Source: an uncultured Clostridia bacterium (GTDB lineage Bacteria; Bacillota; Clostridia; Oscillospirales; Ruminococcaceae). From it: a DNA stretch of 32,391 nucleotides. The DNA is taken from contig CAMOKN010000219.1 in the NCBI GenBank assembly GCA_946617595.1, positions 1 through 32,391 of the forward strand, written 5' to 3'. The notes beneath the pieces are model-generated. The model saw only the letters and a program-made list of their open reading frames with translations, was not told the origin of the DNA and ran no database searches. This document shows positions 10,228 through 27,401 of the stretch, piece by piece; the first letter of the stretch is position 1, and each line of letters begins with the position of its first letter. The position numbers and the translations under genes are program-made.

Positions 10228-10256
10228 TTGACATATCATAGGATATCTGATAAAAT
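10228..10256 (+). promoter_or_regulatory. Sigma-A promoter for the glycan locus (TTGACA-N17-TAAAAT)
   Basis: TTGACA 10228-10233, spacer 17, TAAAAT 10251-10256. Confidence 0.75.
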
Positions 10257-10388: not shown

Positions 10389-11036
10389 ATGAAGAAAATC
10401 GTTATTATATGTGCCGGGGACTTCGGGAGAGAGCTTACCTGGCTGATAGAAGGCATTAATGCCGCAGGACCTGCCTATGATATCATCGGATTTCTCGATG
10501 ATGCTCCGGATAAGATAGGTAAGACTTTCAACGGATACGAGTGTCTCGGAAAGACAGATATGCTTGCAGAACTGTCCGAAAAATATGATGTATGCGCGGT
10601 AATCGCCACACAGGACAGCCGGTTCAGAAGAAAATTCGCTGAGGAAAATCCCGGTTTCGATAAATGGGAGACTCTGATACACCCATCGGCAAATATCTCC
10701 CGTACTTCTAAGCTCGGAAAGGGCTGTATCGTATGTGCGAACTGCAATATCAGCGTTAATACGGTGATCGGCGATCACTGTCTGTTCAATCTGGGCGTTA
10801 CCATAGGACACGACTGCAATATAGGCGATTATGCGTCTGTAATGACAGGAACGGTCATATCCGGTCATGTGACGGTCAAGCCGTCCTCGTATTTCGGGAC
10901 GAACAGCACAGTCGTCCCCGGGATAAGCGTAGGTGAAAATTCAAAAATAGGAGCGGGTTCTTTAGTAGTGCGGAATGTCAGGGATAATGTGACAGTAATG
11001 GGAGTCCCCGCAAAAACAGTAAACATTGTGCAGTGA
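10389..11036 (+). CDS. NeuD/PglD-like sugar O/N-acyltransferase (left-handed beta-helix)
   Basis: N-terminal Rossmann-like 'IVIICAGDFGRELTWLIEG..IIGFLDD' and hexapeptide repeats 'VNTVIGDHCLFNLGVTIGHDCNIGDYASVMTGTVISG'. Confidence 0.88.
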   Translation: MKKIVIICAGDFGRELTWLIEGINAAGPAYDIIGFLDDAPDKIGKTFNGYECLGKTDMLAELSEKYDVCAVIATQDSRFRRKFAEENPGFDKWETLIHPSANISRTSKLGKGCIVCANCNISVNTVIGDHCLFNLGVTIGHDCNIGDYASVMTGTVISGHVTVKPSSYFGTNSTVVPGISVGENSKIGAGSLVVRNVRDNVTVMGVPAKTVNIVQ

Positions 11037-11068
11037 TCTGCCGCAATGAGGTGAGGGAGTGACAGAAA

Positions 11069-12151
11069 ATGCAGATCCTGAATATCAGCGGAGTACATAT
11101 AGACGGTATTTCGGCGTGTGTGCCGGAAAACAGGATCGATAATGAAGCTTCGCTTCGTGAGATATACGGAAATGATGCAAGTCTCATCATAGGCTCTACC
11201 GGTATAAAGACAAGATATACCGCAGCCCCGGGGACCTCCTCCTCAGATCTTTGTATAGCCTGTGCCGAGGATATTCTCAATGCTTCCGGAACTTCTGCCG
11301 ATGAGATAGGCGCAGTAATATTCGTTACCTTCACTCCCGACAGGCTGATGCCGTTCAACGCTGCGATAGTGCAGGATAAACTCGGGCTCGGAAAAGAGAT
11401 CCCCGCATTCGATATATCGCTTGCCTGTTCGGGATATACTTATGGACTATATATTGCATCGACATTCGTGAAAGCCACCGGAAAGAAAGTCCTTCTTCTT
11501 GACGGAGATATACAGAGCGCATATATGAGCGGATATGACAGATCAACAGTGCCGGTAATGGCTGACGCAGGCACGGCAACGCTTCTTTCACCCTGCAAGT
11601 CTGATGCTGAGTGGAAATTCACATTCTATACGGACGGTTCCGGAAGGGACAGTCTGATGATACCGGCAGGTGGTTCAGCTGCACCGATCAAGCCGGAGGA
11701 TCTGGAATATATCCCTTCCGATGACGGGGGAAAAAGAAGAAACGCAGATATCTTCATGGACGGATTTGCGATATTCCGGTTCATAGCAAGCGATATCTCT
11801 AAGTGGCTGCTGAACTTTATGAAAGATGCAGGTGTAACGGCGGGCATGATCGACTCGTTTGTGCCGCATCAGGCTAATATGTATATGATAAAAAAGCTTT
11901 CAAAGAAGCTTGGATTCGACTGGGATAAAACATGGCGGTCGGGGGACGAGGTCGGAAATTCCGCCTCGGCAACTGTGCCGCTGACGATAGCATTTGACTG
12001 CCGCGACAGACTAATATCGGACAGGGAGAACAAAGTGCTGATCTCCGGGTTCGGCGGAGGTCTTTCGGCAGGTGCGGGGATAATAACACTTGACCCCGGC
12101 GCTTATTATCACTTCTTTCAGTATTTCGGAAAAATGCTGAAAAGAGCTTAA
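11069..12151 (+). CDS. 3-oxoacyl-ACP synthase III (KASIII/FabH-like)
   Basis: Cys 'FDISLACSGY', His 'VPHQANMYM', Asn 'GDEVGNSASATVPL': intact Cys-His-Asn triad. Confidence 0.92.
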   Translation: MQILNISGVHIDGISACVPENRIDNEASLREIYGNDASLIIGSTGIKTRYTAAPGTSSSDLCIACAEDILNASGTSADEIGAVIFVTFTPDRLMPFNAAIVQDKLGLGKEIPAFDISLACSGYTYGLYIASTFVKATGKKVLLLDGDIQSAYMSGYDRSTVPVMADAGTATLLSPCKSDAEWKFTFYTDGSGRDSLMIPAGGSAAPIKPEDLEYIPSDDGGKRRNADIFMDGFAIFRFIASDISKWLLNFMKDAGVTAGMIDSFVPHQANMYMIKKLSKKLGFDWDKTWRSGDEVGNSASATVPLTIAFDCRDRLISDRENKVLISGFGGGLSAGAGIITLDPGAYYHFFQYFGKMLKRA

Positions 12152-12169
12152 ACCGGGAGGATATTTAAT

Positions 12170-12391
12170 ATGGAGCGATTTATAGATCTGGTGGCTGAGA
12201 TATTTGAAGTTGAGCCTGAGGAAGTTGCCATGGACACGGTATTTCGTGAGGAACTTCCGGATTTCAGTTCGCTTGTGGGATTTTCGCTTATAGTAATGAT
12301 GGAAGACGAATACGGTGTGAAGGTTCCGGTCGGAGAATTTCTTGAATGTAAAACGGTCGGTGATCTTTACAGAAAGTGCGTGAAAGAATAG
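12170..12391 (+). CDS. Acyl carrier protein (SSL variant of the DSL motif)
   Basis: 'FREELPDFSSLVGFSLIVMMEDEYGVKVPVGEFLECKTVGDLY' aligns with the ACP fold; candidate phosphopantetheine Ser in SSL. Confidence 0.85.
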   Translation: MERFIDLVAEIFEVEPEEVAMDTVFREELPDFSSLVGFSLIVMMEDEYGVKVPVGEFLECKTVGDLYRKCVKE

Positions 12392-12403
12392 AGTGTGGGT
12401 ATA

Positions 12404-13144
12404 ATGGAAAAAGTACTTGTCACGGGCGTATGCGGCGGTATCGGAAAATGCACTGCCGAAAAGCTGCTTGCCGGAGGTTCGGCTGTCATAGGCGCGGATA
12501 TTGAGATAAGCGAAAGCATCAGAGAGACAGCAGAAAAATATCCCGGAAAACTGTTTTTGTATCAGACAGATCTTACCGATACAGACGGGCTGGCAGAATT
12601 TGTAAAGCGCATAGTCTCCGTCCATGGTCCGGTAAGCGGATTTGTGCATTGCGCGGGATTTGACAAGATGATGCCTCTTCATCTTTCAAAGGCGCGGGAT
12701 ATCGAAGCTCTGTGGAAGATCCACGCACTTGTGCCGATGCTCATTACTGCGGCTTTAAGCAAGAAAAACAATCACACTGAAAATGCCGCTGTGGTTTTAA
12801 TAACATCGCAGTCGGCGCATGAGGGCGCAATGGGGCATTCAGCTTATGCCGCAGCGAAGGGAGCGGTCGAGGGATTCCTTGCTCCGGCTGCTGCCGAGCT
12901 TATGGAAAAGAATATCAGAATAAACGAGGTTTGTCTTGCTCCTGTTAAGACACCAATGTCGGAGAGCTGGACGAATAAGCTTACAGATGAGGGAAGAAAA
13001 AGACTTGCCGAAAGCTATCCGCTTGGGCTCGGAGAACCCGAAGACGCGGCTGAGCTTATATGCTTTCTGCTCAGCAGTGAGTCGCGCTGGATAAACGGGC
13101 AGATAATCACCGCGGACGGCGGACATTCAGTAAGAAAGGTCTGA
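12404..13144 (+). CDS. SDR family oxidoreductase (FabG-like)
   Basis: 'VLVTGVCGGIGKCTAEKLL', 'SAYAAAKGAVEGF' (YxxxK), C-terminal 'INGQIITADGG'. GTG at 12395 is an alternative start. Confidence 0.92.
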   Translation: MEKVLVTGVCGGIGKCTAEKLLAGGSAVIGADIEISESIRETAEKYPGKLFLYQTDLTDTDGLAEFVKRIVSVHGPVSGFVHCAGFDKMMPLHLSKARDIEALWKIHALVPMLITAALSKKNNHTENAAVVLITSQSAHEGAMGHSAYAAAKGAVEGFLAPAAAELMEKNIRINEVCLAPVKTPMSESWTNKLTDEGRKRLAESYPLGLGEPEDAAELICFLLSSESRWINGQIITADGGHSVRKV

Positions 13145-13184
13145 CCGGCGCTATTTATGCGGTCCGGAAAAGAGGAGAACGCAG

Positions 13185-13400
13185 ATGAAGGAATTTTTAA
13201 AATTTGTTGCCGGAGTCATGGAGGTCGATCCCTCCGAATTGAGTGAAGATACTGCTTACGGCGAATATGAAAAATGGGATTCTCTGATGCACATACGACT
13301 TATTATGGAAACTGAAGAAAAGTATGATATCGAGATACCGATAGATGAGGTCCCCGGAATAAAAAATCTGAAGGATCTTTACAGATATACAGATAAGTGA
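13185..13400 (+). CDS. Acyl carrier protein (second copy)
   Basis: 'YEKWDSLMHIRLIMETEEKYDIEIPIDEVPGIKNLKDLY' with a DSL motif. Confidence 0.9.
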   Translation: MKEFLKFVAGVMEVDPSELSEDTAYGEYEKWDSLMHIRLIMETEEKYDIEIPIDEVPGIKNLKDLYRYTDK

Positions 13401-13436
13401 CGATATGGGGTTCCGGTCTGAATGGAGGGGAGTATG

Positions 13437-15083
13437 ATGCGGGTTGCTCTTCTGTCAAATGTGACTGTCGATCTGCTTGCGGGAATGCTCGGAAAAAATG
13501 CAGAAATATATGTTCCGGCAGGTTATGACACATGGCAGCGTGAGATGACAGACCGTTCTTCCGGATTATACGGATCCGGACCCGAAGCGGCGGCAGTCCT
13601 GCTGCACGCTGAGCAGTACAATAATGTGTGGAACGATGAGACAAGGGGCGGACAGCTTATCGGCGAGTGGTGCAGTGCGTTCAGGGCATTTGCTGAGACG
13701 CTTCCGGGAGTACCGCTATTTGTGTCATCTGTTGATATATGCGGAATGAAATGCTCTTACGGTGCTGAAAAGATACTTAGCGCTCATTTTGAAGATCTGC
13801 TGATACAGAAAGTGCAGGAACTTCACAGCGAGGGTCACGCGGTCTATATCCTGCCTGTCAGAGAACTGATAGCCGATATCGGGCGGAAGAATTTCTATTA
13901 CCCGAAGATGTGGTATCTCGGCTCGATGCCTTATTCGGCGAAAGCTCTTGCGGGGATATCTGAGCTTATTCTGAGATATGTTTCCGCATCGGGCGGACGG
14001 AGAAAAAAATGCATCGCTCTCGATCTTGACAATACTCTATGGGGCGGAGTCATCGGAGAAGACGGTGTAAACGGAATTCTTCTTTCGGATCACAAAGAGG
14101 GCGCAAGATTCAAGGATACACAGCGCCTTCTCAAAAAAATGAAGGAACAGGGAGTAATGCTTGCTGTGCTTTCAAAGAACAATCCCGAAGATGTCATTCC
14201 GGTCTTCGATCACCCCGATATGCTTATCAGGCGTGAAGATATAGTTGCAAGCCGCATCAATTGGGAACCAAAATATCAGAACATAAGACAGCTTGCGGAA
14301 GAACTGAACATCGGACTGGATTCGTTCGTATTCCTTGACGACGATCCTGCCGAGCGGGAGCAGATGAAGGCGGAGTGTCCCGAAGTCACGGTGGTCGAAT
14401 TTCCGCCTGATACGTCTCTTCTTCCATATGCGGTGGAGAAAGTCTATGAAGAATACTTTCTTTCTCTTGATATAACCGGAGAAGACAGCAGAAAAACAGA
14501 AATGTACATAGCAGAGAACCGGCGCAGGGCAGAACGTGAGCATTCAGCAACTCCGGAGGATTTTCTGAAAAATCTCGGAATGTCCATGGATATCCGCTTT
14601 ATGACAGCCGAAGATGAGCAAAGGACAGTACAGCTCATTAACAAGACAAATCAGTTCAACGTGACAACAAAGAGGTATTCTCAGGAGGAGATACGCAGGC
14701 TTTCGGAGCATGAAAGCTGCGATATCATCACGGTACGTATGTCGGACAAGTACGGGGATCAGGGACTGGTCGCCGTAATGATACTTGAATATGAGAGAAA
14801 TGAAGCCGTTATCGACACTTTTCTTATGTCGTGCAGAGTAATGGGCAGATGCGCTGAGCTTGAGATCATGGCGCAGGTAAGAGGAATGCTTGAGAAAAAG
14901 GGTATAGGTATCATCAAGGCTTCGTATATAAAAACAGCGAAGAATGCTCCCGTAGCTGAATTGTTTGAGAAGCTCGGATTTGACGCAGTTGATGTCTCCG
15001 CAGAACGTAAGATGTACAGGGCGGAAGTGAGCGTGCTTCCTCAGTCTTCGGGAGTATTCAAAGAGGTAAGATGCAGCTTATGA
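13437..15083 (+). CDS. FkbH-like HAD-IIIC family protein
   Basis: 'KCIALDLDNTLWGGVIGEDG', 'GVMLAVLSKNNPEDV', 'FVFLDDDPAEREQM', then a C-terminal GNAT-like region 'TKRYSQEEIRRL..DKYGDQGLVAVMI'. Confidence 0.93.
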   Translation: MRVALLSNVTVDLLAGMLGKNAEIYVPAGYDTWQREMTDRSSGLYGSGPEAAAVLLHAEQYNNVWNDETRGGQLIGEWCSAFRAFAETLPGVPLFVSSVDICGMKCSYGAEKILSAHFEDLLIQKVQELHSEGHAVYILPVRELIADIGRKNFYYPKMWYLGSMPYSAKALAGISELILRYVSASGGRRKKCIALDLDNTLWGGVIGEDGVNGILLSDHKEGARFKDTQRLLKKMKEQGVMLAVLSKNNPEDVIPVFDHPDMLIRREDIVASRINWEPKYQNIRQLAEELNIGLDSFVFLDDDPAEREQMKAECPEVTVVEFPPDTSLLPYAVEKVYEEYFLSLDITGEDSRKTEMYIAENRRRAEREHSATPEDFLKNLGMSMDIRFMTAEDEQRTVQLINKTNQFNVTTKRYSQEEIRRLSEHESCDIITVRMSDKYGDQGLVAVMILEYERNEAVIDTFLMSCRVMGRCAELEIMAQVRGMLEKKGIGIIKASYIKTAKNAPVAELFEKLGFDAVDVSAERKMYRAEVSVLPQSSGVFKEVRCSL

Positions 15084-15466
15084 AAACAGATCATATCGGA
15101 TATGCGGTAAAGGATATAGAAAAAGCAAAAAAGACTATGGAAGTACTTGGCTATACCGTAGGAGATACGGTCGGGGACAGGGACAGAAACATATATTTTT
15201 CTTTCTGTGAAATGGACGGTCAGCGTGTCGAACTGGTAGCACCGATGTCGGAAGGTTCGCCGGTTGACGGCTATCTTGCAAAATCAGGTCCGATGCCTTA
15301 TCATATATGTTACAAAAGCAGTGATCTCGATGGTGATATAGAGCGGCTTAAAGCGAACAGATTCAGGGTATCCGTTCCTCCGGCTCCGGCGATAGCTTTC
15401 GGAAACAAGAGAGTCGTTTTCATGTACTCGCTTTCGGTCGGACTGATCGAGATAGCGGAGGAATAG
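15071..15466 (+). CDS. VOC (glyoxalase/methylmalonyl-CoA epimerase-like) family protein
   Basis: 'DHIGYAVKDIEKAKKTMEVLGY', 'QRVELVAP', 'PYHICYKSSDLDGDIERLK', 'VGLIEIAE'. ATG at 15080 (ATGA overlap) is an alternative start. Confidence 0.87.
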   Translation: MQLMKTDHIGYAVKDIEKAKKTMEVLGYTVGDTVGDRDRNIYFSFCEMDGQRVELVAPMSEGSPVDGYLAKSGPMPYHICYKSSDLDGDIERLKANRFRVSVPPAPAIAFGNKRVVFMYSLSVGLIEIAEE

Positions 15467-15468
15467 TT

Positions 15469-16395
15469 ATGCCGCTGTCAAAGTATCTGAGACTGCCTCT
15501 GTATGAGGTGAGAGGATATCCGAAGGAATGCCCGGAGAAAGTGCAGGAGCTGTTTTCGCGAGCTTTTAAAGGCAGGACGGAATCCCTTGAAATGCTGCGC
15601 TGGCAGATGGAGGATAATCCGTGTCTGAAAGAGCGTGCAACTTCTCTCTGGAAAGGCGATGCACTTGTTGCGTACAACGCGCTTACTCCTCACCCGGCGT
15701 TTCTGCGCGGCAAAGAAGTTTATGCTGCTGTCAGCGGAACGACAATGGCGGACGAGCTTTACCCCGGCTGCTCAGTACAGCTTTTCAGAGAGTGTGCGCA
15801 GCAGAACAGGGATATCGCGGTGATCGTGGGATTTCCGAACCGCAATTCATTTAATATAACTGTAAAATATTCGGGTCATCACTATGTCGGTGATGTCGCG
15901 TTCTGGACTGCCGCAGCACGCAGAGAAGATGTTTCCGGAAGTATCAGGGAGTTTTACAGCTTTTCGCCGGAGTATGAGAGTATCAGCCGCGGATTGTCAG
16001 AGTCGCACGAGCTTATACAGACCCGTCAGAAGGATTTTCTTGACTGGAGGATCTTCAAAAAGCCGGAGACGGATTACAGATGCTTTGAATATAAAAAGAG
16101 CGGTTATATCGTCACTGATATCTACACCGAAAATAACGTAAGACAATTGCAGATAGTGGATATTATAGCCGATTCGGAAGATGTGATGTATGAGCTGCTG
16201 AGATTTGCGCTTGATTTTGCCGCAGAGCAGGCTTGCAGCATGGTAAAGCTGTGGTTCACATCTGAGCGGTACCGCAGGGTTCTCGAAAGCTGCGGATTTG
16301 AATACGGTGAGCACCCTTTCCCGATGACTGTGTGGGATAGTGACCTGGATATCTCCGGGTCATACATTACTATGATAGATTCGGATATTTTTTAA
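15469..16395 (+). CDS. GNAT-like N-acyltransferase
   Basis: Two-lobed GNAT-like pattern 'LVAYNALTPHPAFLRGKEVYAAVSGTTMADELYPGCSVQLFRECA', 'KDFLDWRIFKKPETDYRCFEYKKSGYIV'. Confidence 0.65.
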   Translation: MPLSKYLRLPLYEVRGYPKECPEKVQELFSRAFKGRTESLEMLRWQMEDNPCLKERATSLWKGDALVAYNALTPHPAFLRGKEVYAAVSGTTMADELYPGCSVQLFRECAQQNRDIAVIVGFPNRNSFNITVKYSGHHYVGDVAFWTAAARREDVSGSIREFYSFSPEYESISRGLSESHELIQTRQKDFLDWRIFKKPETDYRCFEYKKSGYIVTDIYTENNVRQLQIVDIIADSEDVMYELLRFALDFAAEQACSMVKLWFTSERYRRVLESCGFEYGEHPFPMTVWDSDLDISGSYITMIDSDIF

Positions 16396-16412
16396 TCAAG
16401 AGGTCAGATAGA

Positions 16413-17120
16413 ATGGAAGAAGATGTACTTCCTAAGGTAAAAAGATCCTTTTATGCTGTTGTTGTCAAGAGAATACTTGATATTGTCATAAGCTCAGCGG
16501 CATTGATAATACTGTCTCCGCTTCTGCTGACCGTTTGTGTGCTGGAGCTTATTTTTCACGGAAGTCCGGTCATATACCGCACCAGACGTCCCGGAAAAGA
16601 CGGCAGGATCTTCAATATGTATAAATTCCGCAGCATGACGAATGAGCGGGGAGCAGACGGACTGCTTCTTCCCGAGGATAAGCGTCTCACAAGGTTCGGA
16701 CATTTTATCCGCAAGTTGTCGATAGACGAGCTGCCGGGTCTGATAAATATAGTAAAGGGAGATATGAGCATAGTCGGACCTCGTCCGCTTCTGATAGAAT
16801 ATCTGCCGTATTATAATGCACGTCACGCCATGAGACACGCTGTACGCCCCGGACTGACGCTTGAAAGGATCGACGGTACGGACAGCGGTACATGGACTTG
16901 GCGTGAACAGTTTGAAAATGATATATGGTATATAGAGCATATAAGTTTTATTACAGATGTCCGTATGCTGTTTGCGATCGTAAAGGCTGTTTTCAGAAGA
17001 AGCGAGAACAGGGCGAGCGACACGAGAACGCCGTTTGACGGTACAAATCTTGATGAGACAAGGGGAAGAAACGAGCTTGGCATCGAGAAGCATTTCGACA
17101 GTCTGGAGAAAAAGGACTGA
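16413..17120 (+). CDS. Initiating sugar-1-phosphate (undecaprenyl-phosphate) transferase
   Basis: 'KRILDIVISSAALIILSPLLLTV', 'YRTRRPGKDGRIFNMYKFRSM', 'RKLSIDELPGLINIVKGDMSIVGPRPL'. Confidence 0.95.
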   Translation: MEEDVLPKVKRSFYAVVVKRILDIVISSAALIILSPLLLTVCVLELIFHGSPVIYRTRRPGKDGRIFNMYKFRSMTNERGADGLLLPEDKRLTRFGHFIRKLSIDELPGLINIVKGDMSIVGPRPLLIEYLPYYNARHAMRHAVRPGLTLERIDGTDSGTWTWREQFENDIWYIEHISFITDVRMLFAIVKAVFRRSENRASDTRTPFDGTNLDETRGRNELGIEKHFDSLEKKD

Positions 17121-17153
17121 AAGGAGCTGCACCGGTGAGGTGCTGTCATAACT

Positions 17154-17843
17154 ATGAATGTATTGGTATTTGCGCCACATCCGGACGATGATGTGCTGGG
17201 CTGCGGCGGAACTCTGAGCAGATATGCTGCCGAAGGACATGATGTATATGTGTGCATAATGACAAGCGGTTTTCCGCCTCTTTATGAGGAGGATTATAAT
17301 AATGCACAGAAGAACGGCTGGCCGCATATACAGTATCCCGATATCATGAAAGCACATAAGATACTGGGAATAAAGGAAACGTTTTTCCTGCAATTTCCGA
17401 CAGTGCAGCTGGAGACGGTTCCGCGGTACGAGGTGAACTCAAAGGTGTGCGGGCTTGTGCGCAGTCTGACTCCGGAAATCGTATATATCCCGCATTTCGG
17501 CGATCTGCACAAGGATCACCTTATCACATCAGAGGCTGTAATGGTCGCGGTAAGACCCGGAGGTGAGAATACCGTAAGATATGTTTATTCCTACGAGACA
17601 CTTTCAGAGACAGAGTGGAACGTTTCGCATGTATCAAACAGTTTTATTCCAAATACCTTTGTGGATATCAGCGGAACGCTTGATAAAAAGCTTGAAGCAA
17701 TGGGCTGCTTTTCAACACAGCTGTGCGAATTTCCGAGCCCCAGATCATTAAAGGCGGTTGAGGCTCTTGCGGTGCTGCGGGGATCAACAATGGGAGCGCA
17801 GGCGGCGGAAGCGTTTTCTTTGGTGAGAGAGTACAGGAGATAA
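17154..17843 (+). CDS. PIG-L family N-acetylglucosaminyl deacetylase
   Basis: 'VFAPHPDDDVLGCGGTL' and 'HFGDLHKDHLITSEAV'. Confidence 0.92.
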   Translation: MNVLVFAPHPDDDVLGCGGTLSRYAAEGHDVYVCIMTSGFPPLYEEDYNNAQKNGWPHIQYPDIMKAHKILGIKETFFLQFPTVQLETVPRYEVNSKVCGLVRSLTPEIVYIPHFGDLHKDHLITSEAVMVAVRPGGENTVRYVYSYETLSETEWNVSHVSNSFIPNTFVDISGTLDKKLEAMGCFSTQLCEFPSPRSLKAVEALAVLRGSTMGAQAAEAFSLVREYRR

Positions 17844-17873
17844 AAATTTATTTTTTTGATATGGTGCGGTGAA

Positions 17874-18968
17874 ATGAGGATCATAACATTCGGGATCTTT
17901 TCCGATAAGCTGTCAGGACAGGATACATTCCTTCTGAATATGAATGAACACATGAGATCGGTGAAGATGGATTTCGTGGTAGTGGGTTCCGACTGCATAC
18001 ATAAGGATATCATAAGTTCTCAGGGGAGTGAACTGTACTATGTTTCGGATTACTGGAAGGATCCTGTGAAATATATCTCGGATTGCAGAAAGGTTTTGAA
18101 GCAGAACAGGAAAACACACCCGATAGCTTATTTCAACTTGTTTTCAATGGTGCATATAATTCCGGTCATCATTGCAAAGATGCTGAAATATAAAGTTGTT
18201 CTGCATTCGCACAACAGTGATATCCCGGATAAAAAAGCACTGCACAGACTGAACCGCTTTTTGTTCAGCAGCAAAAAAGGCTTCACCCGTTTCGCCTGTT
18301 CTGAAAAAGCGGCACTGTTCATGTTTGGTAAGAAGCGGGTAAAAGATACTATCATTATAAAAAACGCGATCGACACCGGGCACTTTATGTTCTCGGAAGA
18401 AGCGAGATCTCAGCTCCGCGCAGAACTCGAAATCGGAAACAGAAATGTTTATGGTTTTGTCGGAAGACTTGATAGTCAGAAAAATCCTCTCTTCCTGATA
18501 GAGATATTTAAGAGGATCTCCGAGCGTGATAAGGATCCGGTATTTCTTATAGTCGGTGAAGGAAAACTGAAAGATGAAGTAATTGAACTGATCGGAAAAT
18601 ATTCTTTGCGTGACAGGGTCATACTGCTCGGAAACCGCAGAGATGTAAACAGGATATACAGCTGTATGGATCTTTTCCTGCTTCCGTCAAAATATGAAGG
18701 CTTCAGTATCGTGCTGGTGGAAGCGCAGGCATCAGGACTGACGTGCATAATATCCGAGGGCGTGATGCCGGAAGAAATAAGGCTGACAGAAGGCGGTGTC
18801 AGGTTTGTATCTCTTGAAAGCAGTGCTGATGTATGGGCTGATGAAGCGGTAAGGTGCATCGGAGAAAGCCTCAGCAGAAAAGATCGCAATGATGAGGTCA
18901 GACGATCGGATTATAACATAGAAAAAGAGGCAGGTCGTCTCGAAAATTTATTCCTACATTTAAGGTAA
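17874..18968 (+). CDS. GT4-like glycosyltransferase
   Basis: 'VYGFVGRLDSQKNPLFLIEIFKRI', 'LFLLPSKYEGFSIVLVEAQASGLTCIIS'. Confidence 0.92.
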   Translation: MRIITFGIFSDKLSGQDTFLLNMNEHMRSVKMDFVVVGSDCIHKDIISSQGSELYYVSDYWKDPVKYISDCRKVLKQNRKTHPIAYFNLFSMVHIIPVIIAKMLKYKVVLHSHNSDIPDKKALHRLNRFLFSSKKGFTRFACSEKAALFMFGKKRVKDTIIIKNAIDTGHFMFSEEARSQLRAELEIGNRNVYGFVGRLDSQKNPLFLIEIFKRISERDKDPVFLIVGEGKLKDEVIELIGKYSLRDRVILLGNRRDVNRIYSCMDLFLLPSKYEGFSIVLVEAQASGLTCIISEGVMPEEIRLTEGGVRFVSLESSADVWADEAVRCIGESLSRKDRNDEVRRSDYNIEKEAGRLENLFLHLR

Positions 18969-18975
18969 AGAAAAC

Positions 18976-20139
18976 ATGGAGATTTTAGCGGTTACAGGAT
19001 ATAATAAAGCGCTGACAGATGTTCCTAACACAGAATGTATATATAGTATTTTGAACGAACTGTCCGGGATAGATGATGTTAATGTAACGGTCGCCGGAGA
19101 TGTTATGACCTCGGAGGAATCAGAAAAAAACTGGAAAACTCACCCGATCATCGCATTACGCCGCATAGCAGGGTGGCCTGTAAGAGATCCCGGGGCTGCC
19201 GACCGATGCTATAAAGATGTTCTGGAAAAAATGAGGGAAAAAAAGTACGATGCGATGATCGCATTCCTCAATCCTTATGAAGCGGTCAGGACTGCTGTAA
19301 AAATAAAAAGAAAATATCCCGGAATGCTTTTCATTATCTATGAGATAGATCCGATAACAAACGATATAGATATGAATATCGGGCTCGGAAAAAAACTTCG
19401 TTCGCTTGCAGAACGTTCCGAAAAGAAGGCGTTTGAAAGTGCCGACCTGATAATACACATGAACAGCAACAGGAATAAATTTGATCGCGCTGAATACAGT
19501 GAATTTTCACAGAAGAATGTTTATGTCGATCTTCCGATAATAAATGAGATAAAAAAATATGAGGGAGCCGGATCAAGCGGCGGTGATGAAATAAAGGTAG
19601 TTTTTTCCGGAAGGCTGAGCAGCGTGTATCGTTCTCCGGAATATATCCTGAGAGTGTTTGAGAAGGCTGAAAAAAATACAGATCTTAAATTGTATTTCTA
19701 TTCACGCGGTGACTGTCAGAAGAGAATATCCGAATATGCGCATGAGCATGATTTTCTGTCTGTTAATGATTATGTAGATGCATCAGAACTTGACAGGATA
19801 CTCAGGGAAGCGGATTTTCTTCTTGACATCGGAAATAAGATGTCCGATATGCTCCCGTCAAAACTATTCAATTATATAAGCTACAGAAAGCCGATAATAC
19901 ACGTCTCATCGAAAGAGAACGATGCCTGCGTACCGTATCTTGAAAGATACGGAATATACACTGTCATTGATGAAGGTGATACTGTGGAGCATTCGGCTGA
20001 TAAACTCACTGAGTTTGTTTCAAAGAATAAAGGAAGACTTGCTGATGAAGCGCTGACAGAAAAAGAATTTTACACGAACACTCCTGCGTACAGTGCAAAA
20101 GTAATTGCCGAGCAGATAAAAATGAGATGTCAGAAATGA
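18976..20139 (+). CDS. Glycosyltransferase (GT-B, GT4-like)
   Basis: 'VVFSGRLSSVYRSPEYILRVFEKAEKNTDLKLYFYSRGDC', 'DMLPSKLFNYISYRKPIIHVSS'. Confidence 0.75.
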   Translation: MEILAVTGYNKALTDVPNTECIYSILNELSGIDDVNVTVAGDVMTSEESEKNWKTHPIIALRRIAGWPVRDPGAADRCYKDVLEKMREKKYDAMIAFLNPYEAVRTAVKIKRKYPGMLFIIYEIDPITNDIDMNIGLGKKLRSLAERSEKKAFESADLIIHMNSNRNKFDRAEYSEFSQKNVYVDLPIINEIKKYEGAGSSGGDEIKVVFSGRLSSVYRSPEYILRVFEKAEKNTDLKLYFYSRGDCQKRISEYAHEHDFLSVNDYVDASELDRILREADFLLDIGNKMSDMLPSKLFNYISYRKPIIHVSSKENDACVPYLERYGIYTVIDEGDTVEHSADKLTEFVSKNKGRLADEALTEKEFYTNTPAYSAKVIAEQIKMRCQK

Positions 20140-21335
20140 AAAAGATCCTTTCTATAAATGTTGCAAATTACGGAAGCACCGGAAACATAATGCGCGGTAT
20201 CTCAGAGCTTGCCGAAAAGAACGGATATGAGTGCTGGCAGGCGTATGCACCGGACAAAATAAATGCCCCCGGACTTGAACGGGATATTGTTGTTGCATCT
20301 TATAATATCCGGCGTATAAATGAGCGTTATGCACGATATACGGGAATGAGAGGGTATCAGGCTTATTTCTCCACAAAACTTTTCCTGAAAAAAATTGACA
20401 GGATAGCTCCGGATATCATTCATCTGCATAATCTGCATAATAACTACATTCACGTCGGATTGTTGTTTAATTATATAAAAAAGAATGATATCAGGGTAGT
20501 ATGGACTCTTCACGACTGCTGGGCATTTACCGGCAGATGCCCTCATTTTGAGATCACCGGCTGTGAAAAATGGATAAGCGGCTGTTATGAATGTCAATAT
20601 CCGGCAAACGAATACCCTTCCGCAAAGAAAGACAGGACAGCCGAACTCTGGAGACGAAAAAAAGAGTCGTTTTCCGGAGTAAAAAATATGACACTTGTAA
20701 CACCTTCGGAATGGCTTTCCCGACTTGTAAAACAGTCTTTTCTGAAAGAGTATGAGACTAAGGTGATCAATAACGGCATAGACCTCGGTGTTTTCAGACC
20801 GACAGAAAGCGATTTCAGAAAAAAACACTCTCTTGGGGACAAATTTGTGGTGTTGGGTGTTTCTTTCGGTTGGAATAAGAGAAAGGGAATTGATGTATTT
20901 GCAGAACTTGCTTCACGTCTGGACGAACGGTTTGCGATAGTTCTTGTCGGTACCGATGACCTTACAGATAAGATGCTTCCCGGAAACATCATAACAATAC
21001 ACAGAACTGACAGCCAGCGCGAGCTTGCTGAGATCTATTCTTCTGCCGATGTTTTTGTTGATCCGACACGGGAGGACAATTTTCCGACGGTTGTCATGGA
21101 AGCATTAGCCTGCGGTACTCCCGCAGTTGTGTTCAATACAGGCGGCTGTCCTGAGATAATCAGTGAAAATTGCGGATATGTTGTGGAAAAGGACGATATC
21201 TGCGATCTTGTGGATAAAACAGTGAAAGTATGTGTGGATAAACCGTTTGACAAAGAAGACTGTGTCACAAGAGCAGAGTCTTTTGACCGTCAGAATAAAT
21301 TCAAGGAGTATGTTGATCTGTATAACTCAATATAG
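20136..21335 (+). CDS. GT4 glycosyltransferase (colanic-acid-type)
   Basis: 'NVANYGSTGNIMRGI', 'WTLHDCWAFTGRCPHFE', 'FVDPTREDNFPTVVMEALACGTPAVVFNTGG'. Start at 20127 or 20136, overlapping the previous gene. Confidence 0.93.
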   Translation: MKKILSINVANYGSTGNIMRGISELAEKNGYECWQAYAPDKINAPGLERDIVVASYNIRRINERYARYTGMRGYQAYFSTKLFLKKIDRIAPDIIHLHNLHNNYIHVGLLFNYIKKNDIRVVWTLHDCWAFTGRCPHFEITGCEKWISGCYECQYPANEYPSAKKDRTAELWRRKKESFSGVKNMTLVTPSEWLSRLVKQSFLKEYETKVINNGIDLGVFRPTESDFRKKHSLGDKFVVLGVSFGWNKRKGIDVFAELASRLDERFAIVLVGTDDLTDKMLPGNIITIHRTDSQRELAEIYSSADVFVDPTREDNFPTVVMEALACGTPAVVFNTGGCPEIISENCGYVVEKDDICDLVDKTVKVCVDKPFDKEDCVTRAESFDRQNKFKEYVDLYNSI

Positions 21336-21344
21336 GTAGAGTAA

Positions 21345-22631
21345 ATGAACAAGGTTGTAAAAAACGCCTCATGGATAATTATATGCCGTGTCATTCAGGC
21401 TGTGCTTGCACTTATAATTTCCATGATGACTGCGAGATATCTGGGACCTTCAAATTATGGACTGCTGAATTATGCAATGTCTGTAGTGTCATTTGTGATC
21501 CCGGTCATGAAGCTTGGGATAACAAACATACTTGTGCGTGAATTTGTTGACGAGCCCGAAAAAGAGGGAGAGATCTTAGGTACATCAACAATTCTCAGCC
21601 TGTTGTCTTCGTTCATTTGTGTTGCCGGTGTCAATATTTTTGTGGGGATCGCAAATGCGGGTGAAACTGATACGAGAGTGGTATGCGCACTGTACAGCTC
21701 AATACTGGTGATGAATGTTTTTGAAGTGTTCAACTACTGGTTTCAGGCAAGACTTCTGGCAAAGTACAGCTCGGTGATCGCACTTATCGCGTATGGGATC
21801 GTGTCGGCATACAAGATATGGCTTCTGATAACAGAAAAGAATATTTACTGGTTTTCGGTTGCAAATACTCTTGACTACCTGATGATCGCGGTGGGGCTGA
21901 TAGTAGTCTATACCGTAAAAGGAGGGCAGAAGCTGCGGTTCAGCAAACAGCGTGCAAAGCGTCTGTTGTCGGTCAGCGGTTTCTATATAATTTCTGATCT
22001 TATGATAGTCATTTTTGCGCAGACGGACAGAGTAATGCTTAAAGCTATGATAGACAATACCGCAACGGGATATTATTCCGCCGCGATAAACTGCGCGGGA
22101 ATGACGCAGTTTGTCTTTGCTGCAATAATTGATTCGATGCGCCCGATGATCTTTGAGGGAAAGAAAAGATCAGATGATTCATACAAGCGTGATCTGACCC
22201 TGCTTTTTTCGATCATTATTTACCTGTCCTTAACGCAGAGTATAGCGATGACACTTCTGGCACCGCTGATAATAAATATACTTTACGGAGCAGATTATGC
22301 TGCGGCTGTACCGGCACTTCAGATAGTAGTCTGGTACACTACATTTTCATATCTTGGTTCGGCGCGGAATATATGGATACTGTCAGAAGGAAAACAGAAA
22401 TATCTCTGGCGGATCAATCTTTTCGGTGCTGTCGCGAATGTGCTGCTGAATGCAGTTCTGATACCTTTTCTCGGAGTGAACGGAGCCGCGCTCGCTTCGC
22501 TGATAACACAATTTATGACAAATGTAGTTACCGGATTCATTTTTGCGCCGATACGCGGAGTCAACGCGCTGATGCTGAGAGGAACAGACCCTCGTGTCCT
22601 GATAAATGCACTGAAAAAATTAAAGAGATGA
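21345..22631 (+). CDS. Oligosaccharide flippase (Wzx/MATE-like)
   Basis: Multi-TM protein 'NASWIIICRVIQAVLALIISMMTARYLGPSNYGLLNYAMSVVSF', typical polysaccharide exporter. Confidence 0.92.
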   Translation: MNKVVKNASWIIICRVIQAVLALIISMMTARYLGPSNYGLLNYAMSVVSFVIPVMKLGITNILVREFVDEPEKEGEILGTSTILSLLSSFICVAGVNIFVGIANAGETDTRVVCALYSSILVMNVFEVFNYWFQARLLAKYSSVIALIAYGIVSAYKIWLLITEKNIYWFSVANTLDYLMIAVGLIVVYTVKGGQKLRFSKQRAKRLLSVSGFYIISDLMIVIFAQTDRVMLKAMIDNTATGYYSAAINCAGMTQFVFAAIIDSMRPMIFEGKKRSDDSYKRDLTLLFSIIIYLSLTQSIAMTLLAPLIINILYGADYAAAVPALQIVVWYTTFSYLGSARNIWILSEGKQKYLWRINLFGAVANVLLNAVLIPFLGVNGAALASLITQFMTNVVTGFIFAPIRGVNALMLRGTDPRVLINALKKLKR

Positions 22632-23470
22632 ATTTCTTGGAGAATCAAATGGAAACTGAAAAGTACGAGCGGCTGTCTGTCGAAGAACTGAAAAAGATCC
22701 AGCTTGGAATTCTTGAATATGTGGCAGATTATTGCGAAAAAAACAATATCAGATATTGGCTGGATTTTGGTACGCTAATTGGCGCAATACGGCACAAAGG
22801 GTATATCCCGTGGGACGATGATATCGATCTGGGAATGTTAAGAGAAGACTATGATAAATTTATTTCTGAATTCAATATAAATAATGATTCAAAATATGAA
22901 GTTCATTGCATTGAAAATGATCCGGGGTATTTTGTGCCTTATGCTAAAGTATATGATACAACAACAATACTGTTTGAGCCTGATGAAAAAGGACACAAGC
23001 TATGTGTAAACATTGATATTTTTCCTCATGACAATGCACCGGATGATGACGAGGAAGTAAAAAGGATGTATGACATACGTGATCGGCTCAGAGAAAAATA
23101 TCTGATAATTGATTACAAAGATAAGTTTACAGGAAATATGATAAAGAGATCGGCTAAACATCTCAGAAGATTTTTGTATAGCATAATTTATAAAAACAGT
23201 ATTAATATAATTGCGGATAATTCTAAAAGATATAAAGACACTATGACAAAAAGAGTCGGAAATTTTACAGGCTATTCAAGAATTGCTTGTAACAGGCAGA
23301 TATTTGACAGCTTTACAGATGTAGAATTTGAAATGAAAAAATACAAAGCGCCGATCGGTTATGATGAATGGCTTAGGTCAATATATGGAGATTATATGGA
23401 ATTGCCTCCGCCTGAAAAGCAAATTACTCATCACCGCAATATATCTTTTAAAAGGAAACAGGAAAAGTAA
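22628..23470 (+). CDS. LicD family phosphotransferase
   Basis: 'YWLDFGTLIGAIRHKGYIPWDDDIDLGMLREDYDKF'; ATGA overlap with the flippase stop. Confidence 0.93.
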   Translation: MNFLENQMETEKYERLSVEELKKIQLGILEYVADYCEKNNIRYWLDFGTLIGAIRHKGYIPWDDDIDLGMLREDYDKFISEFNINNDSKYEVHCIENDPGYFVPYAKVYDTTTILFEPDEKGHKLCVNIDIFPHDNAPDDDEEVKRMYDIRDRLREKYLIIDYKDKFTGNMIKRSAKHLRRFLYSIIYKNSINIIADNSKRYKDTMTKRVGNFTGYSRIACNRQIFDSFTDVEFEMKKYKAPIGYDEWLRSIYGDYMELPPPEKQITHHRNISFKRKQEK

Positions 23471-23536
23471 TAAATGATATATACATCATGCTGTTTGTAC
23501 GGTACAGTTATGGATAAGAATGAAAGGAACTGATCT

Positions 23537-23977
23537 ATGAAAAAATATCATATAGGATATACCTGTGGAGTGTTTGATGTATTTCATGTAGGGCATCTTA
23601 ATCTCCTGGAAAGATGTAAAAAAATGTGCGATTATCTTATAGTCGGAGTCTGTGATGATTTATATGTCAGAGAGATCAAAAAACAGATTCCTGTGTACTC
23701 AGAAAATGACAGGATCCGTATTCTTAATGCTCTTAAAGTTGTTGATGAAGCCGTTCTGGTAGATATAGAAACAACCAATGATAAGCTGATCGCCTTAAAA
23801 AGATTCAATTTCGATGTATTGTTTTCCGGTGATGACTGGAAAGGCACAGAACGTTATTTAAAGACTGAACAGCAATTTGCGCAATTAGGTGTACATATCG
23901 AGTATTTCCCATATACAAATGGGATCAGTACCTCTATGATAAGAGAATCTCTCGGAAATAACAAAATAAAGGAATAA
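23537..23977 (+). CDS. TagD-like glycerol-3-phosphate (or related) cytidylyltransferase
   Basis: 'GYTCGVFDVFHVGHLNLLERCK', 'YTNGISTSMIRESL'. Confidence 0.9.
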   Translation: MKKYHIGYTCGVFDVFHVGHLNLLERCKKMCDYLIVGVCDDLYVREIKKQIPVYSENDRIRILNALKVVDEAVLVDIETTNDKLIALKRFNFDVLFSGDDWKGTERYLKTEQQFAQLGVHIEYFPYTNGISTSMIRESLGNNKIKE

Positions 23978-23980
23978 AAA

Positions 23981-25033
23981 ATGACTGATAATTTAGCAGA
24001 GACATTAAAAGAAAAAACATTGCTTATCACCGGCGGTACCGGCTCATTCGGCTCTGCCGTCCTGAAGCATTTTATCAATACCGGTATCGGGCAGATACGT
24101 ATTTTCTCGCGCGATGAAAAAAAACAGGACGATATGCGGCACGAGCTTCAGGCAAAATATCCTGAGAATTATAAAAAAGTCAGATTTTATATAGGTGATG
24201 TGCGTAACTACCGATCGGTGGCTGATGCAATGCCCGGAGTTGATTATATTTTTCACGCTGCGGCTCTCAAGCAGGTCCCTTCGTGCGAATTTTTCCCTAT
24301 GGAGGCGGTCAGGACGAATATCGAGGGAACCGACAACGTTCTTCACGCAGCTACAGAAGCCGGAGTTAAGCGTGTAGTCTGCCTCTCCACGGACAAGGCT
24401 GCTTATCCGATCAATGCAATGGGAACTTCAAAAGCAATGATGGAGCACGTTGTCTTCGCCAATGCGCGTGTTGCAGCCGAAATGGGAAAAACCGTCATCT
24501 GCTGTACACGATACGGAAACGTAATGTGCAGCCGCGGTTCTGTTATACCGCTTTTCATAGATCAGATAAAGTCAGGAGCTCCGATCACCGTTACAAATCC
24601 GGCAATGACAAGATTTCTCATGAATCTTGACGAAGCGGTAGAGCTTGTGCGTTTTGCCTTTGAGAATGCAGCTCCCGGCGATCTGTTCATACAGAGATCC
24701 GACGCATCTACTATCGGTGATCTCGCAAAGGGAGTCCAGCGGCTTTTCGGAGATACCGGAACAAACATCATAGGTACCCGTCACGGTGAAAAACTTTATG
24801 AGACTCTGATGACAAGAGAAGAACGTCTGCGTGCAGTGGATATGGGTAACTATTTCCGCGTTTCAGCAGATGACCGCGATCTCAATTATGACAAATATTT
24901 TGCTGAGGGAACCGTAATGACCGGGAACGAGGAAAGCTATACAAGCCACAATACGAATCTTCTCGATGTTGACGGCGTTGTAAAAAAGCTGCTCACCAAT
25001 GATTATGTAAAAGAGCAGCTCGGAGAGGTATGA
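23981..25033 (+). CDS. capE: CapE/FnlA-like UDP-GlcNAc 4,6-dehydratase/epimerase
   Basis: 'LLITGGTGSFGSAVLKHFI', 'HAAALKQVPSCEFFPMEAVRTNIEGT', 'LSTDKAAYPINAMGTSKAMME'. Confidence 0.9.
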   Translation: MTDNLAETLKEKTLLITGGTGSFGSAVLKHFINTGIGQIRIFSRDEKKQDDMRHELQAKYPENYKKVRFYIGDVRNYRSVADAMPGVDYIFHAAALKQVPSCEFFPMEAVRTNIEGTDNVLHAATEAGVKRVVCLSTDKAAYPINAMGTSKAMMEHVVFANARVAAEMGKTVICCTRYGNVMCSRGSVIPLFIDQIKSGAPITVTNPAMTRFLMNLDEAVELVRFAFENAAPGDLFIQRSDASTIGDLAKGVQRLFGDTGTNIIGTRHGEKLYETLMTREERLRAVDMGNYFRVSADDRDLNYDKYFAEGTVMTGNEESYTSHNTNLLDVDGVVKKLLTNDYVKEQLGEV

Positions 25034-26205
25034 ATATGGCAGAATGGCAGAATAACGGCAGAATAAAGCTGATGATAATTGCAGGCACCCGTCCGGAGAT
25101 AATCCGCCTTTCCGCGGTCATCAAAAAGTGCCGCAGGTATTTTGATACTATACTCGTTCACACAGGACAGAACTATGATTATAACCTGAACGGTATCTTT
25201 TTCAGGGATCTCGGACTTGACGCTCCCGAAATTTATCTTGACGCGGTGGGCGCAGATCTCGGAGAGACTATGGGCAATATCATCTCTGCGTCTTACAGGG
25301 TCATGGCTGAGATGATGCCTGATGCAGTCCTTGTTCTCGGAGATACGAACAGCTGTCTGTCCGTTATCGGAGCAAAACGTCTGCACATACCGATATTCCA
25401 CATGGAAGCCGGAAACCGCTGCAAAGATGAATGTCTGCCGGAGGAGACCAACCGCCGCATTGTGGATATCATCTCTGATGTGAATCTTGCGTATTCGGAA
25501 CACGCAAGGCGTTATCTCGCTGACTGCGGACTTCCGAAAGAGCGGACTTTTGTTACCGGTTCTCCCATGGCAGAGGTACTTGCCGAAAATCTTGAGGCGA
25601 TAAAAAGATCTGATATACATTCACGGCTCGGACTTGAAAAAGGAAAATATATCCTGCTTTCCGCGCACCGTGAAGAGAACATCGACACAGAAGTAAATTT
25701 CACGTCGCTGTTTTCCGCGATAAACAGTATGGCAGAAAAATATGATATGCCGGTGCTTTATTCCTGTCACCCACGCTCAAAAAAACGGCTCGAATCAAGC
25801 GGATTCAGGCTTGATAAACGTGTGATCCGGCATGAGCCGCTCGGATTCCATGACTATAACTGTCTTCAGATGAATGCGTTCTGTGTAGTATCCGACAGCG
25901 GAACCCTTCCGGAAGAGAGCAGCTTTTTCGCGTCGGTCGGAAACCCCATTCCCGCAGTCTGTATCCGCACTTCCACAGAACGTCCCGAAGCGCTTGAAAA
26001 GGCTTGCTTCATACTGTCGGGAATAGATACAAAGGGTTTGTTACAGGCAGTAGATACCGCTGTAGAAATGATAAAAAACGAGCCGGACGGCGGTGCTGTG
26101 CCGGTGCCGGACTACACCGACCTGAACGTGTCCGGAAAGGTAGTTAAAATAATCCAGTCGTATGTAGGAGCCGTGAATAAAATGGTGTGGAGAAAAGATG
26201 TATGA
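25030..26205 (+). CDS. capG: CapG/FnlC-like UDP-N-acetyl hexosamine 2-epimerase
   Basis: 'IIAGTRPEIIRLSAVI', 'HTGQNYDYNLNGIFFRDL', 'HMEAGNRCKDECLPEETNR'; sits between the capE- and capF-like genes. Confidence 0.87.
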   Translation: MNMAEWQNNGRIKLMIIAGTRPEIIRLSAVIKKCRRYFDTILVHTGQNYDYNLNGIFFRDLGLDAPEIYLDAVGADLGETMGNIISASYRVMAEMMPDAVLVLGDTNSCLSVIGAKRLHIPIFHMEAGNRCKDECLPEETNRRIVDIISDVNLAYSEHARRYLADCGLPKERTFVTGSPMAEVLAENLEAIKRSDIHSRLGLEKGKYILLSAHREENIDTEVNFTSLFSAINSMAEKYDMPVLYSCHPRSKKRLESSGFRLDKRVIRHEPLGFHDYNCLQMNAFCVVSDSGTLPEESSFFASVGNPIPAVCIRTSTERPEALEKACFILSGIDTKGLLQAVDTAVEMIKNEPDGGAVPVPDYTDLNVSGKVVKIIQSYVGAVNKMVWRKDV

Positions 26206-27401
26206 ATATTCTCATAACAGGTGCGGCTGGGTTCGTTGGACGTAATCTGACCGAGAATCTGAAAAATATCCGCGACGGAAAGAATCGTACCCGTCCGCTC
26301 ATAAAAATAGATAATATTTTTGAATTTGACAGGGAAAACTCTCCCGATGATCTCGGCAGGTTCTGCCGTGACTGCGATTTTGTGTTCAATCTTGCCGGTG
26401 TGAACCGTCCTTTGGATACGAAAGAGTTCAAAGAAGGAAATTACGGTTTTGCCGCACATCTGCTTGACACTCTGAAAGAGCATAATAACAGATGCCCCGT
26501 GATGCTCAGCAGCAGTATCCAGGCATCGCTGTCGGGACGTTTCGGAACATCTGATTACGGCATTTCAAAACGTGACTGTGAAGAATTGTTCTTCCGTTAT
26601 TCACAAGAAACAGGTGCAGACGTATATGTCTATCGTTTCCCGAATATAGTCGGAAAATGGGTGCGCCCGAATTATAACAGTGCTGTCGCTACATTCTGTC
26701 ATAATATAGCAAATGATCTTCCGATAACAGTAAATGACCCGTCGGTCGAGCTGGAACTGCTGTTTGTGGAAGATCTTATAGAAGAAATGTATGATGCGCT
26801 TGAAGGTCACCCTCACCGGTGCAATTTCAACGGTGTTATGTCAATTGCCGATGATGACGGAAAGTATTGCTTTTCTCCGGTAACTCACAGAGCATCGCTC
26901 GGAAAGATCACAGAACTGCTCTATGCTTTCCGCAGACAGCCTGAGGATCTCATAATGCCGGCGATACCCGAAGGTTCGCTGGAGAAAAAACTGTATTCGA
27001 TGTATCTGTCATATCTTCCGAAAGAAAAAGCCGCGGTCGATCTTAAAATGAACCGCGACGAGAGGGGGAGCTTTACCGAACTGCTCAAAACCGCAGATCA
27101 CGGTCAGTTCTCCGTGAATGTCACCAGACCCGGCGTTACAAAAGGTCAGCACTGGCACAACTCAAAATGGGAATTATTCATTGTTGTCAGCGGACACGGA
27201 CTGATACAGCAGAGAAGGATCGGCACCGACGAAGTGCTGGAATTTGAAGTAAGCGGTGAGAAAATTCAGGCGGTCCATACTCTTCCCGGCTATGCGCACA
27301 ATATCATCAATCTTTCCGATACCGATGATCTGGTAACTCTTATGTGGGCAAACGAGATATTTGATCCCGACCACCCGGATACTTTCTCGGAAAAAGTCTG
27401 A
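26202..27401 (+). CDS. capF: CapF/FnlB-like bifunctional SDR-cupin reductase (UDP-L-FucNAc pathway)
   Basis: 'ILITGAAGFVGRNL', 'FNLAGVNRP', C-terminal cupin 'TRPGVTKGQHWHNSKWELFIVVSGHGLIQQR'. Confidence 0.92.
   Translation: MNILITGAAGFVGRNLTENLKNIRDGKNRTRPLIKIDNIFEFDRENSPDDLGRFCRDCDFVFNLAGVNRPLDTKEFKEGNYGFAAHLLDTLKEHNNRCPVMLSSSIQASLSGRFGTSDYGISKRDCEELFFRYSQETGADVYVYRFPNIVGKWVRPNYNSAVATFCHNIANDLPITVNDPSVELELLFVEDLIEEMYDALEGHPHRCNFNGVMSIADDDGKYCFSPVTHRASLGKITELLYAFRRQPEDLIMPAIPEGSLEKKLYSMYLSYLPKEKAAVDLKMNRDERGSFTELLKTADHGQFSVNVTRPGVTKGQHWHNSKWELFIVVSGHGLIQQRRIGTDEVLEFEVSGEKIQAVHTLPGYAHNIINLSDTDDLVTLMWANEIFDPDHPDTFSEKV

Follow-up and report, generated by a model that had tools for sequence, protein, structure and literature searches.

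Gene content of the locus

The DNA analysed here, hereafter the window, is a contig of 32,391 nucleotides from an uncultured Clostridia bacterium of the Ruminococcaceae (CAMOKN010000219.1, assembly GCA_946617595.1), and its element of interest is a cassette of ten genes at positions 10389-17843 that combines predicted enzymes of acyl chain synthesis on acyl carrier proteins (ACPs) with enzymes of surface-glycan assembly. The source assembly amounts to 3.02 Mb and is fragmented. The original prediction, made from the sequence alone, had described the ten genes as a run on one strand with short gaps or overlaps, and this layout was verified: all ten lie at the coordinates below, with checked catalytic motifs intact and gaps between consecutive genes of 32, 18, 3, 40, 21, -13, 2, 17 and 33 bases. 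In profile searches nine of the ten matched named families, so that the labels first given to them hold, while that of the GNAT-like protein is weak. The genes are listed from 5' to 3'.

10389..11036, + strand: PglD/NeuD/VioB-type left-handed beta-helix sugar acyltransferase (TIGR03570, 192 bits, cut-off 161)
11069..12151, + strand: FabH-like 3-ketoacyl-ACP synthase III (KASIII; PF08541/PF08545; Cys-His-Asn intact)
12170..12391, + strand: first acyl carrier protein, ACP1 (PF00550; attachment Ser in FSSL)
12395..13144, + strand: short-chain dehydrogenase/reductase (SDR), predicted 3-ketoacyl-ACP reductase (PF13561, 145 bits)
13185..13400, + strand: second acyl carrier protein, ACP2, predicted FkbH partner (PF00550; WDSL motif, attachment Ser kept)
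13422..15083, + strand: FkbH-like HAD-IIIC protein, predicted glyceryl-ACP synthase (TIGR01686, 315 bits, cut-off 147, E 4e-94)
15071..15466, + strand: VOC protein related to methylmalonyl-CoA epimerase (PF13669; TIGR03081, 65 bits; structures 3hdp and 3rmu)
15469..16395, + strand: possible GNAT-type acyltransferase, a weak assignment (no family at default thresholds)
16413..17120, + strand: monotopic initiating sugar-phosphate transferase (PGT; PF02397, 178 bits)
17154..17843, + strand: PIG-L/LmbE-type N-deacetylase (PF02585; HPDD and HKDH intact)

The best solved relatives of the beta-helix acyltransferase are VioB (7txp), a perosamine N-acetyltransferase (4ea7) and a pilin-glycosylation protein (4m98), and all relatives keep the GHD motif where the catalytic His is presumed to lie. 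The Cys-His-Asn residues of the KASIII, previously noted as intact, were confirmed. FabG-like models match the SDR, none of them above its cut-off, and a BshB1-like model likewise matches the PIG-L protein below cut-off. The sole match of the GNAT-like protein was to GNAT_LYC1-like PF22998 (E 0.022, under cut-off), and its structure model, built with two sequences, was unusable (mean predicted local distance difference test score 38).

The two carrier proteins differ in both motif and neighbours. In the alignment the attachment motif of ACP1 reads SSL and not DSL, the Ser itself being kept, and in the three closest loci ACP1 adjoins the SDR. ACP2 stands directly 5' of FkbH in the same three loci, ending 21 bases upstream of it in the window, and ACP2-like proteins adjoin other FkbHs in many genomes. 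The HAD motifs of FkbH are intact (DLDNT...SKNN...K...DDDP), with 3slr as a structure relative.

The VOC protein retains all four metal-site positions (H/E/H/E) in the alignment. It is unlikely to be a housekeeping methylmalonyl-CoA epimerase, as its TIGR03081 score of 65 bits compares with a cut-off of 115, and methylmalonyl-CoA mutase was not found in this genome's assembly. For the latter reason, the protein most likely works within the cassette. Its relation to methylmalonyl-CoA epimerase prompts the guess that it might epimerise a carrier-bound alpha carbon.

The same genome encodes a second, longer FkbH-like protein of 592 amino acids (G000:C197, L037:7690-13636) beside three DHHW/AlgX-like SGNH proteins, which suggests FkbH-linked acylation of another polysaccharide. 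FkbHs of about 600 amino acids are common in the genus, many with an adjoining ACP.

Conservation of the cassette in other genomes

Related loci were collected by a scan of GTDB contigs followed by KASIII and FkbH searches; the neighbourhood survey used thresholds of 1e-60 to 1e-72, at which distant cases are missed, and no prevalence is claimed. The survey of the block, proposed along with the original prediction, returned the same ten genes in one genome and partial sets in more distant loci. The one close carrier in the contig scan was Sporofaciens musculi (L031), where all ten genes occur in identical order at 60-77% identity (KASIII 70%, GNAT-like protein 63%, PGT 77%, PIG-L 71%). Conservation of the order at such identities indicates that it is not due to chance.

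The Sporofaciens locus holds three further genes: one for a DegT aminotransferase, immediately ahead of the PglD-like gene, one for an Acyl_transf_1 protein, ahead of the KASIII gene, and one for a carboxyltransferase that follows the VOC gene. The best structure matches of the DegT protein are 1o61 and 4ztc, both Campylobacter jejuni PglE, and its best profile matches are the LegC/PseC models; a PglF relative is encoded elsewhere in the genome. The Acyl_transf_1 protein is a FabD-type malonyltransferase, over the curated cut-off. Methylmalonyl was considered as the extender unit and rejected, since this transferase has AAFHS, the malonyl-type motif, and scores above the FabD cut-off. The carboxyltransferase is MmdA-like, below cut-off; it spans two overlapping frames (L031:12061-13609), possibly through a frameshift or an assembly error.

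In three Firmicutes genomes that are less closely related, KASIII, ACP, FkbH and VOC genes lie beside PglD-like, DegT and PGT genes. In G501, whose KASIII is 50% identical to that of the window, the order is DegT-PGT-PglD-KASIII-ACP2-FkbH-VOC-ACP1-SDR. G846 has PGT, AcpS, SDR, PglD, ACP, KASIII, ACP, VOC and FkbH, a DegT gene following some 5 kb beyond them, and G579 has PGT-HTH-KASIII-ACP-VOC-FkbH-3HCDH-PglD-DegT, a 3-hydroxyacyl-CoA dehydrogenase (3HCDH) replacing the SDR. A locus without FkbH, G821 (L053), reads PGT-KASIII-ACP-KASIII-SDR-PglD-AcpS-DegT, and G639 has a minimal PglD-KASIII-ACP set in which DegT was not seen. Five of the six related loci (L031, G501, G821, G846 and G579, but not G639) thus combine a KASIII-ACP set with both a PglD-like acyltransferase and DegT. 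This comparison supports the part of the original prediction according to which the cassette makes a dedicated short hydroxyacyl-ACP for N-acylating a sugar; the claim that PIG-L frees the amine fared differently, as described below.

The acyl block is uncommon: among 391 genomes of the class two had KASIII relatives at E<=1e-70, and among 399 genomes of the phylum three had them at E<=1e-60, this genome being counted in both cases. Of nine FkbH neighbourhoods (the window, L031, G501 and L055-L060), five had both VOC and KASIII and four had neither. Two ACPs occur in four of the five loci that pair KASIII with FkbH, whereas the FkbH-less G821 has two KASIIIs and one ACP, a pattern that, in this small sample, fits a glyceryl primer.

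Proposed route to the acyl chain

We consider it somewhat probable that the cassette works as a dedicated, minimal type II acyl or polyketide factory for surface-glycan assembly. In this scheme FkbH would take glyceryl from 1,3-bisphosphoglycerate and load it onto ACP2, and the VOC protein would act on the ACP-bound glyceryl, perhaps inverting its alpha carbon. The KASIII would then take the glyceryl as primer and condense it with malonyl-ACP1, the SDR would reduce the 3-keto group, and the PglD/VioB-like enzyme would acylate the 4-amine of a UDP-bacillosamine-type sugar with the hydroxyacyl chain carried by ACP1. Finally, the PGT would join the acylated sugar to undecaprenyl phosphate, and the 2-acetamido group of this lipid-linked sugar would be edited by PIG-L, perhaps together with the GNAT-like protein. 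The simplest product, one glyceryl primer plus one malonyl unit and one reduction, would be 3,4,5-trihydroxypentanoyl-ACP1. More tentative, and in its full detail rather doubtful, is the specific proposal that 1,3-bisphosphoglycerate primes a two-ACP polyketide line leading to a C5 polyhydroxyacyl amide on a bacillosamine-type sugar (3,4,5-trihydroxypentanoyl, with the glyceryl carbon possibly inverted by the VOC protein). Both the sugar substituent and this use of FkbH, in several Firmicutes lineages, would then be new.

Several observations weigh against this scheme. ACP1 lacks the usual Asp ahead of its attachment Ser, and the function given to the VOC protein is a guess. The window is without the malonyltransferase and carboxyltransferase of the Sporofaciens type, so malonyl must come from housekeeping enzymes, and the KASIII might be primed by an ordinary acyl-CoA. 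Near the C-terminal region, the PGTs encoded in the window and in Sporofaciens are unlike their counterparts in the remaining KASIII loci, and the primed sugar may therefore differ as well. No DegT aminotransferase is present in this assembly, which is 87.7% complete. Lastly, a Methylomonas locus outside the nine-neighbourhood set (L032:4039-7962) reads FkbH-ACP-VOC-MBOAT with no KASIII, which suggests that FkbH-ACP-VOC can be a standalone unit and that glyceryl may be used directly, for instance for glyceryl O-acylation at this locus. L003 likewise shows FkbH-ACP-VOC, with flanks too short to judge.

The Methylomonas arrangement, together with the presence of two ACPs and two putative acyltransferases in the window, would also suit two separate chains: a glyceryl group transferred directly from FkbH/ACP2, as an N- or O-glyceryl, and a 3-hydroxybutyryl made from acetyl-CoA by KASIII, ACP1 and SDR, each installed by one of the beta-helix and GNAT-like enzymes. 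The GNAT-like gene is absent from G501, however, which nevertheless keeps FkbH, VOC and both ACPs, and G846 and G579 pair KASIII and FkbH with a single PglD-like enzyme. Two chains are therefore unlikely, and a single glyceryl-primed chain is preferred.

Source of the amino sugar and role of the deacetylase

On the preferred reading, a sugar aminotransferase (DegT) would supply the 4-amine. The possibility of a decayed DegT gene in the window was examined with two DegT proteins as queries, and nothing rose above noise. The genome does hold a PglF-like gene on another contig. Its product shares 60-67% identity with the PglFs encoded at G018 and G1254, where PglE-like genes adjoin them, and it is therefore plausible that a PglE-like gene was lost in an assembly gap. 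Of the genes that mark a private acyl-ACP module serving a PglD/VioB acyltransferase, the acyltransferase gene itself and those for KAS, ACP and ketoreductase lie in one operon here, but the sugar aminotransferase is missing. Because DegT was found neither in the window nor in the assembly, the assignment of the locus to this kind, in the sense of working like it, is provisional.

Two other readings would account for the missing aminotransferase. In the first, put forward in the original prediction, PIG-L deacetylates a GlcNAc-type sugar and the beta-helix enzyme acylates the freed amine, so that no aminotransferase would be needed; a PIG-L gene with intact motifs in the same operon agrees with this. 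The cassette-bearing relatives nevertheless have DegT, and no PIG-L gene was seen in the stretches read of four of them (G501, G821, G846 and G579). Conversely, a PglF-PglE-LbH-PGT-PIG-L operon without any acyl cassette occurs in G1254 (L063:5969-11827), its PGT and PIG-L being 54% and 45% identical to those of the window. Moreover, the acyltransferase family is best known for 4-amino nucleotide sugars, and the closest relative (62%) lies directly behind a PglE-like gene. The proposed freeing of the acceptor amine by PIG-L is accordingly not borne out by the comparison; it is kept as an improbable route because of the missing DegT in this assembly.

In the second, the beta-helix enzyme would O-acylate a sugar, as NeuD does on sialic acid, with no amino sugar as acceptor. 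TIGR03570 indeed takes in NeuD O-acetyltransferases, and the lack of DegT in the genome would agree with it. The best solved relatives, on the other hand, are N-acyltransferases for 4-amino sugars, and the relatives are linked with DegT, making O-acylation very improbable.

N-acylation of a 4-amino sugar thus remains the preferred reading, and it would leave PIG-L with another task. Given cassettes that go without PIG-L and a PIG-L locus that goes without the cassette, the gene seems, from its distribution among these loci, to travel with the PGT and bacillosamine genes and not with the acyl supply. Its simplest role would be to edit the 2-acetamido group at a later stage, once the sugar is lipid-linked; a literature search returned no papers on PIG-L acting on lipid-linked bacillosamine. 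The L063 operon is itself a bacillosamine-type pathway with a linked N-deacetylase.

Flanking genes and origin of the cassette

The close-spaced run continues past PIG-L, and a promoter-like site lies ahead of the operon.

10228..10256, + strand: promoter-like site TTGACA-17-TAAAAT with TG before the -10 (the strongest among 13 consensus matches, with 11 of 12 bases agreeing)
17856..22631, + strand: three glycosyltransferase-like genes and a Wzx-type flippase, same operon (PF00534/PF13692, PF01943)
22640..23977, + strand: LicD-family protein and cytidylyltransferase-like protein (PF04991, PF01467)
23981..27401, + strand: UDP-L-FucNAc pathway genes, FnlA/CapE-like, WecB-like and WbcJ/CapF-like (TIGR04130, 470 bits; TIGR00236, 210 bits; NF047837, 358 bits)

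Promoter-consensus matches were as many as in shuffled sequences, and the site at 10228..10256 is a suggestion only. The second open reading frame of the glycosyltransferase set (18976-20139) had no clear glycosyltransferase match and is labelled from its context, and the three UDP-L-FucNAc gene scores are all under strict cut-offs. Although the glycan operon (17856-27401) has a Wzx-type flippase, no Wzy-type polymerase was recognised in it; Sporofaciens musculi, by contrast, has a Wzy_C protein at L031:18891-20189. No RNA families were found in the window. On the minus strand, the gene at 7153-8316 appears by eye to fuse a STAS-like N-terminal region to a small-molecule-kinase-like domain.

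The GC content of the cassette is 47.7%, compared with 43-45% around it, and FkbH matches from the same genus are about 35% identical, aligning mostly from residue 130 on within longer proteins. Together these differences suggest that the cassette was acquired by transfer.

Significance and comparison with known systems

The N-acyl groups that decorate sugars on bacterial surfaces can influence serotype and recognition by the immune system, and the usual assumption is that most of them are acetyl, formyl or 3-hydroxybutyryl. Should FkbH indeed prime the chain, a predictable set of genes would make polyhydroxylated acyl groups, glycan structures could be read from gut bacterial genomes, and a VOC subfamily that currently carries the annotation glyoxalase or methylmalonyl-CoA epimerase would gain a function.

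Flavobacterium psychrophilum and Pseudomonas syringae already offer examples of a PglD/VioB-type enzyme supplied by an acyl-ACP module of its own. The version with FkbH, VOC and two ACPs appears undescribed, as the open-access papers searched held no report of it or of FkbH tied to glycan loci.

In F. psychrophilum, the wfpC-wfpG genes provide a ketoacyl synthase (KAS), an ACP and a ketoreductase proposed to feed a PglD homologue on the route to 3,5-dihydroxyhexanoyl-Qui2NAc4N (PMC6519341). Its O-polysaccharide locus shares with the window a KAS, an ACP, a reductase, a PglD homologue and UDP-L-FucNAc genes, and also has pglE and pglF; the portions of that report drawn on here describe two KASs and one ACP and mention neither FkbH nor VOC, whereas the window has one KASIII, two ACPs, FkbH, VOC and PIG-L, with no PglE found (PMC6519341). 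G821 is closer to the F. psychrophilum type than the window is, having the same enzyme set as its 3,5-dihydroxyhexanoyl genes.

The viosamine island of P. syringae and the glycosylation island of P. aeruginosa PAK likewise combine KASIII (vioS), reductase (vioR), ACP and a VioB-type acyltransferase, there for an N-(3-hydroxybutyryl) amino sugar, and deletion of vioR in P. syringae removes modified viosamine from flagellin (PMC3927599). The P. syringae island differs in its dTDP-viosamine aminotransferase, its flagellin glycan and the absence of FkbH and VOC among its seven genes (PMC3927599). With the C. jejuni Pgl pathway (PglF, PglE, PglD, PglC) the locus shares a PglD-like enzyme and a PGT, a PglF-like protein being encoded elsewhere in the genome; it departs from that pathway in that PglE was not found, in its predicted acyl-ACP donor in place of acetyl-CoA and in the added PIG-L.

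On the acyl side, FkbH and ACP are common to the window and the methoxymalonyl-ACP operon (FkbG-K type), but no O-methyltransferase or dehydrogenase pair lies between 10389 and 17843, where the one SDR is linked to the other ACP. A closer counterpart is the glycerate-utilisation operon of tetronate antibiotics, in which an FkbH-like protein, a standalone ACP and a FabH-like enzyme acting on glyceryl-ACP form the proposed glyceryl-ACP route (PMC7489565). Since KASIII, FkbH and ACP make up this tetronate triad (PMC7489565), a tetronate-like small-molecule pathway could in principle have come to lie in a glycan locus by chance. The window shows neither a polyketide synthase nor an Agg4/Agg5-type acyltransferase/dehydratase and has instead an SDR and a sugar acyltransferase, and in several genomes the block is flanked by PGT, glycosyltransferase or flippase genes; we regard such a pathway as barely credible here. 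The window can instead be read as a combination of the glyceryl-ACP triad of the tetronates and the KASIII-ACP-reductase-PglD/VioB route of the F. psychrophilum and P. syringae systems.

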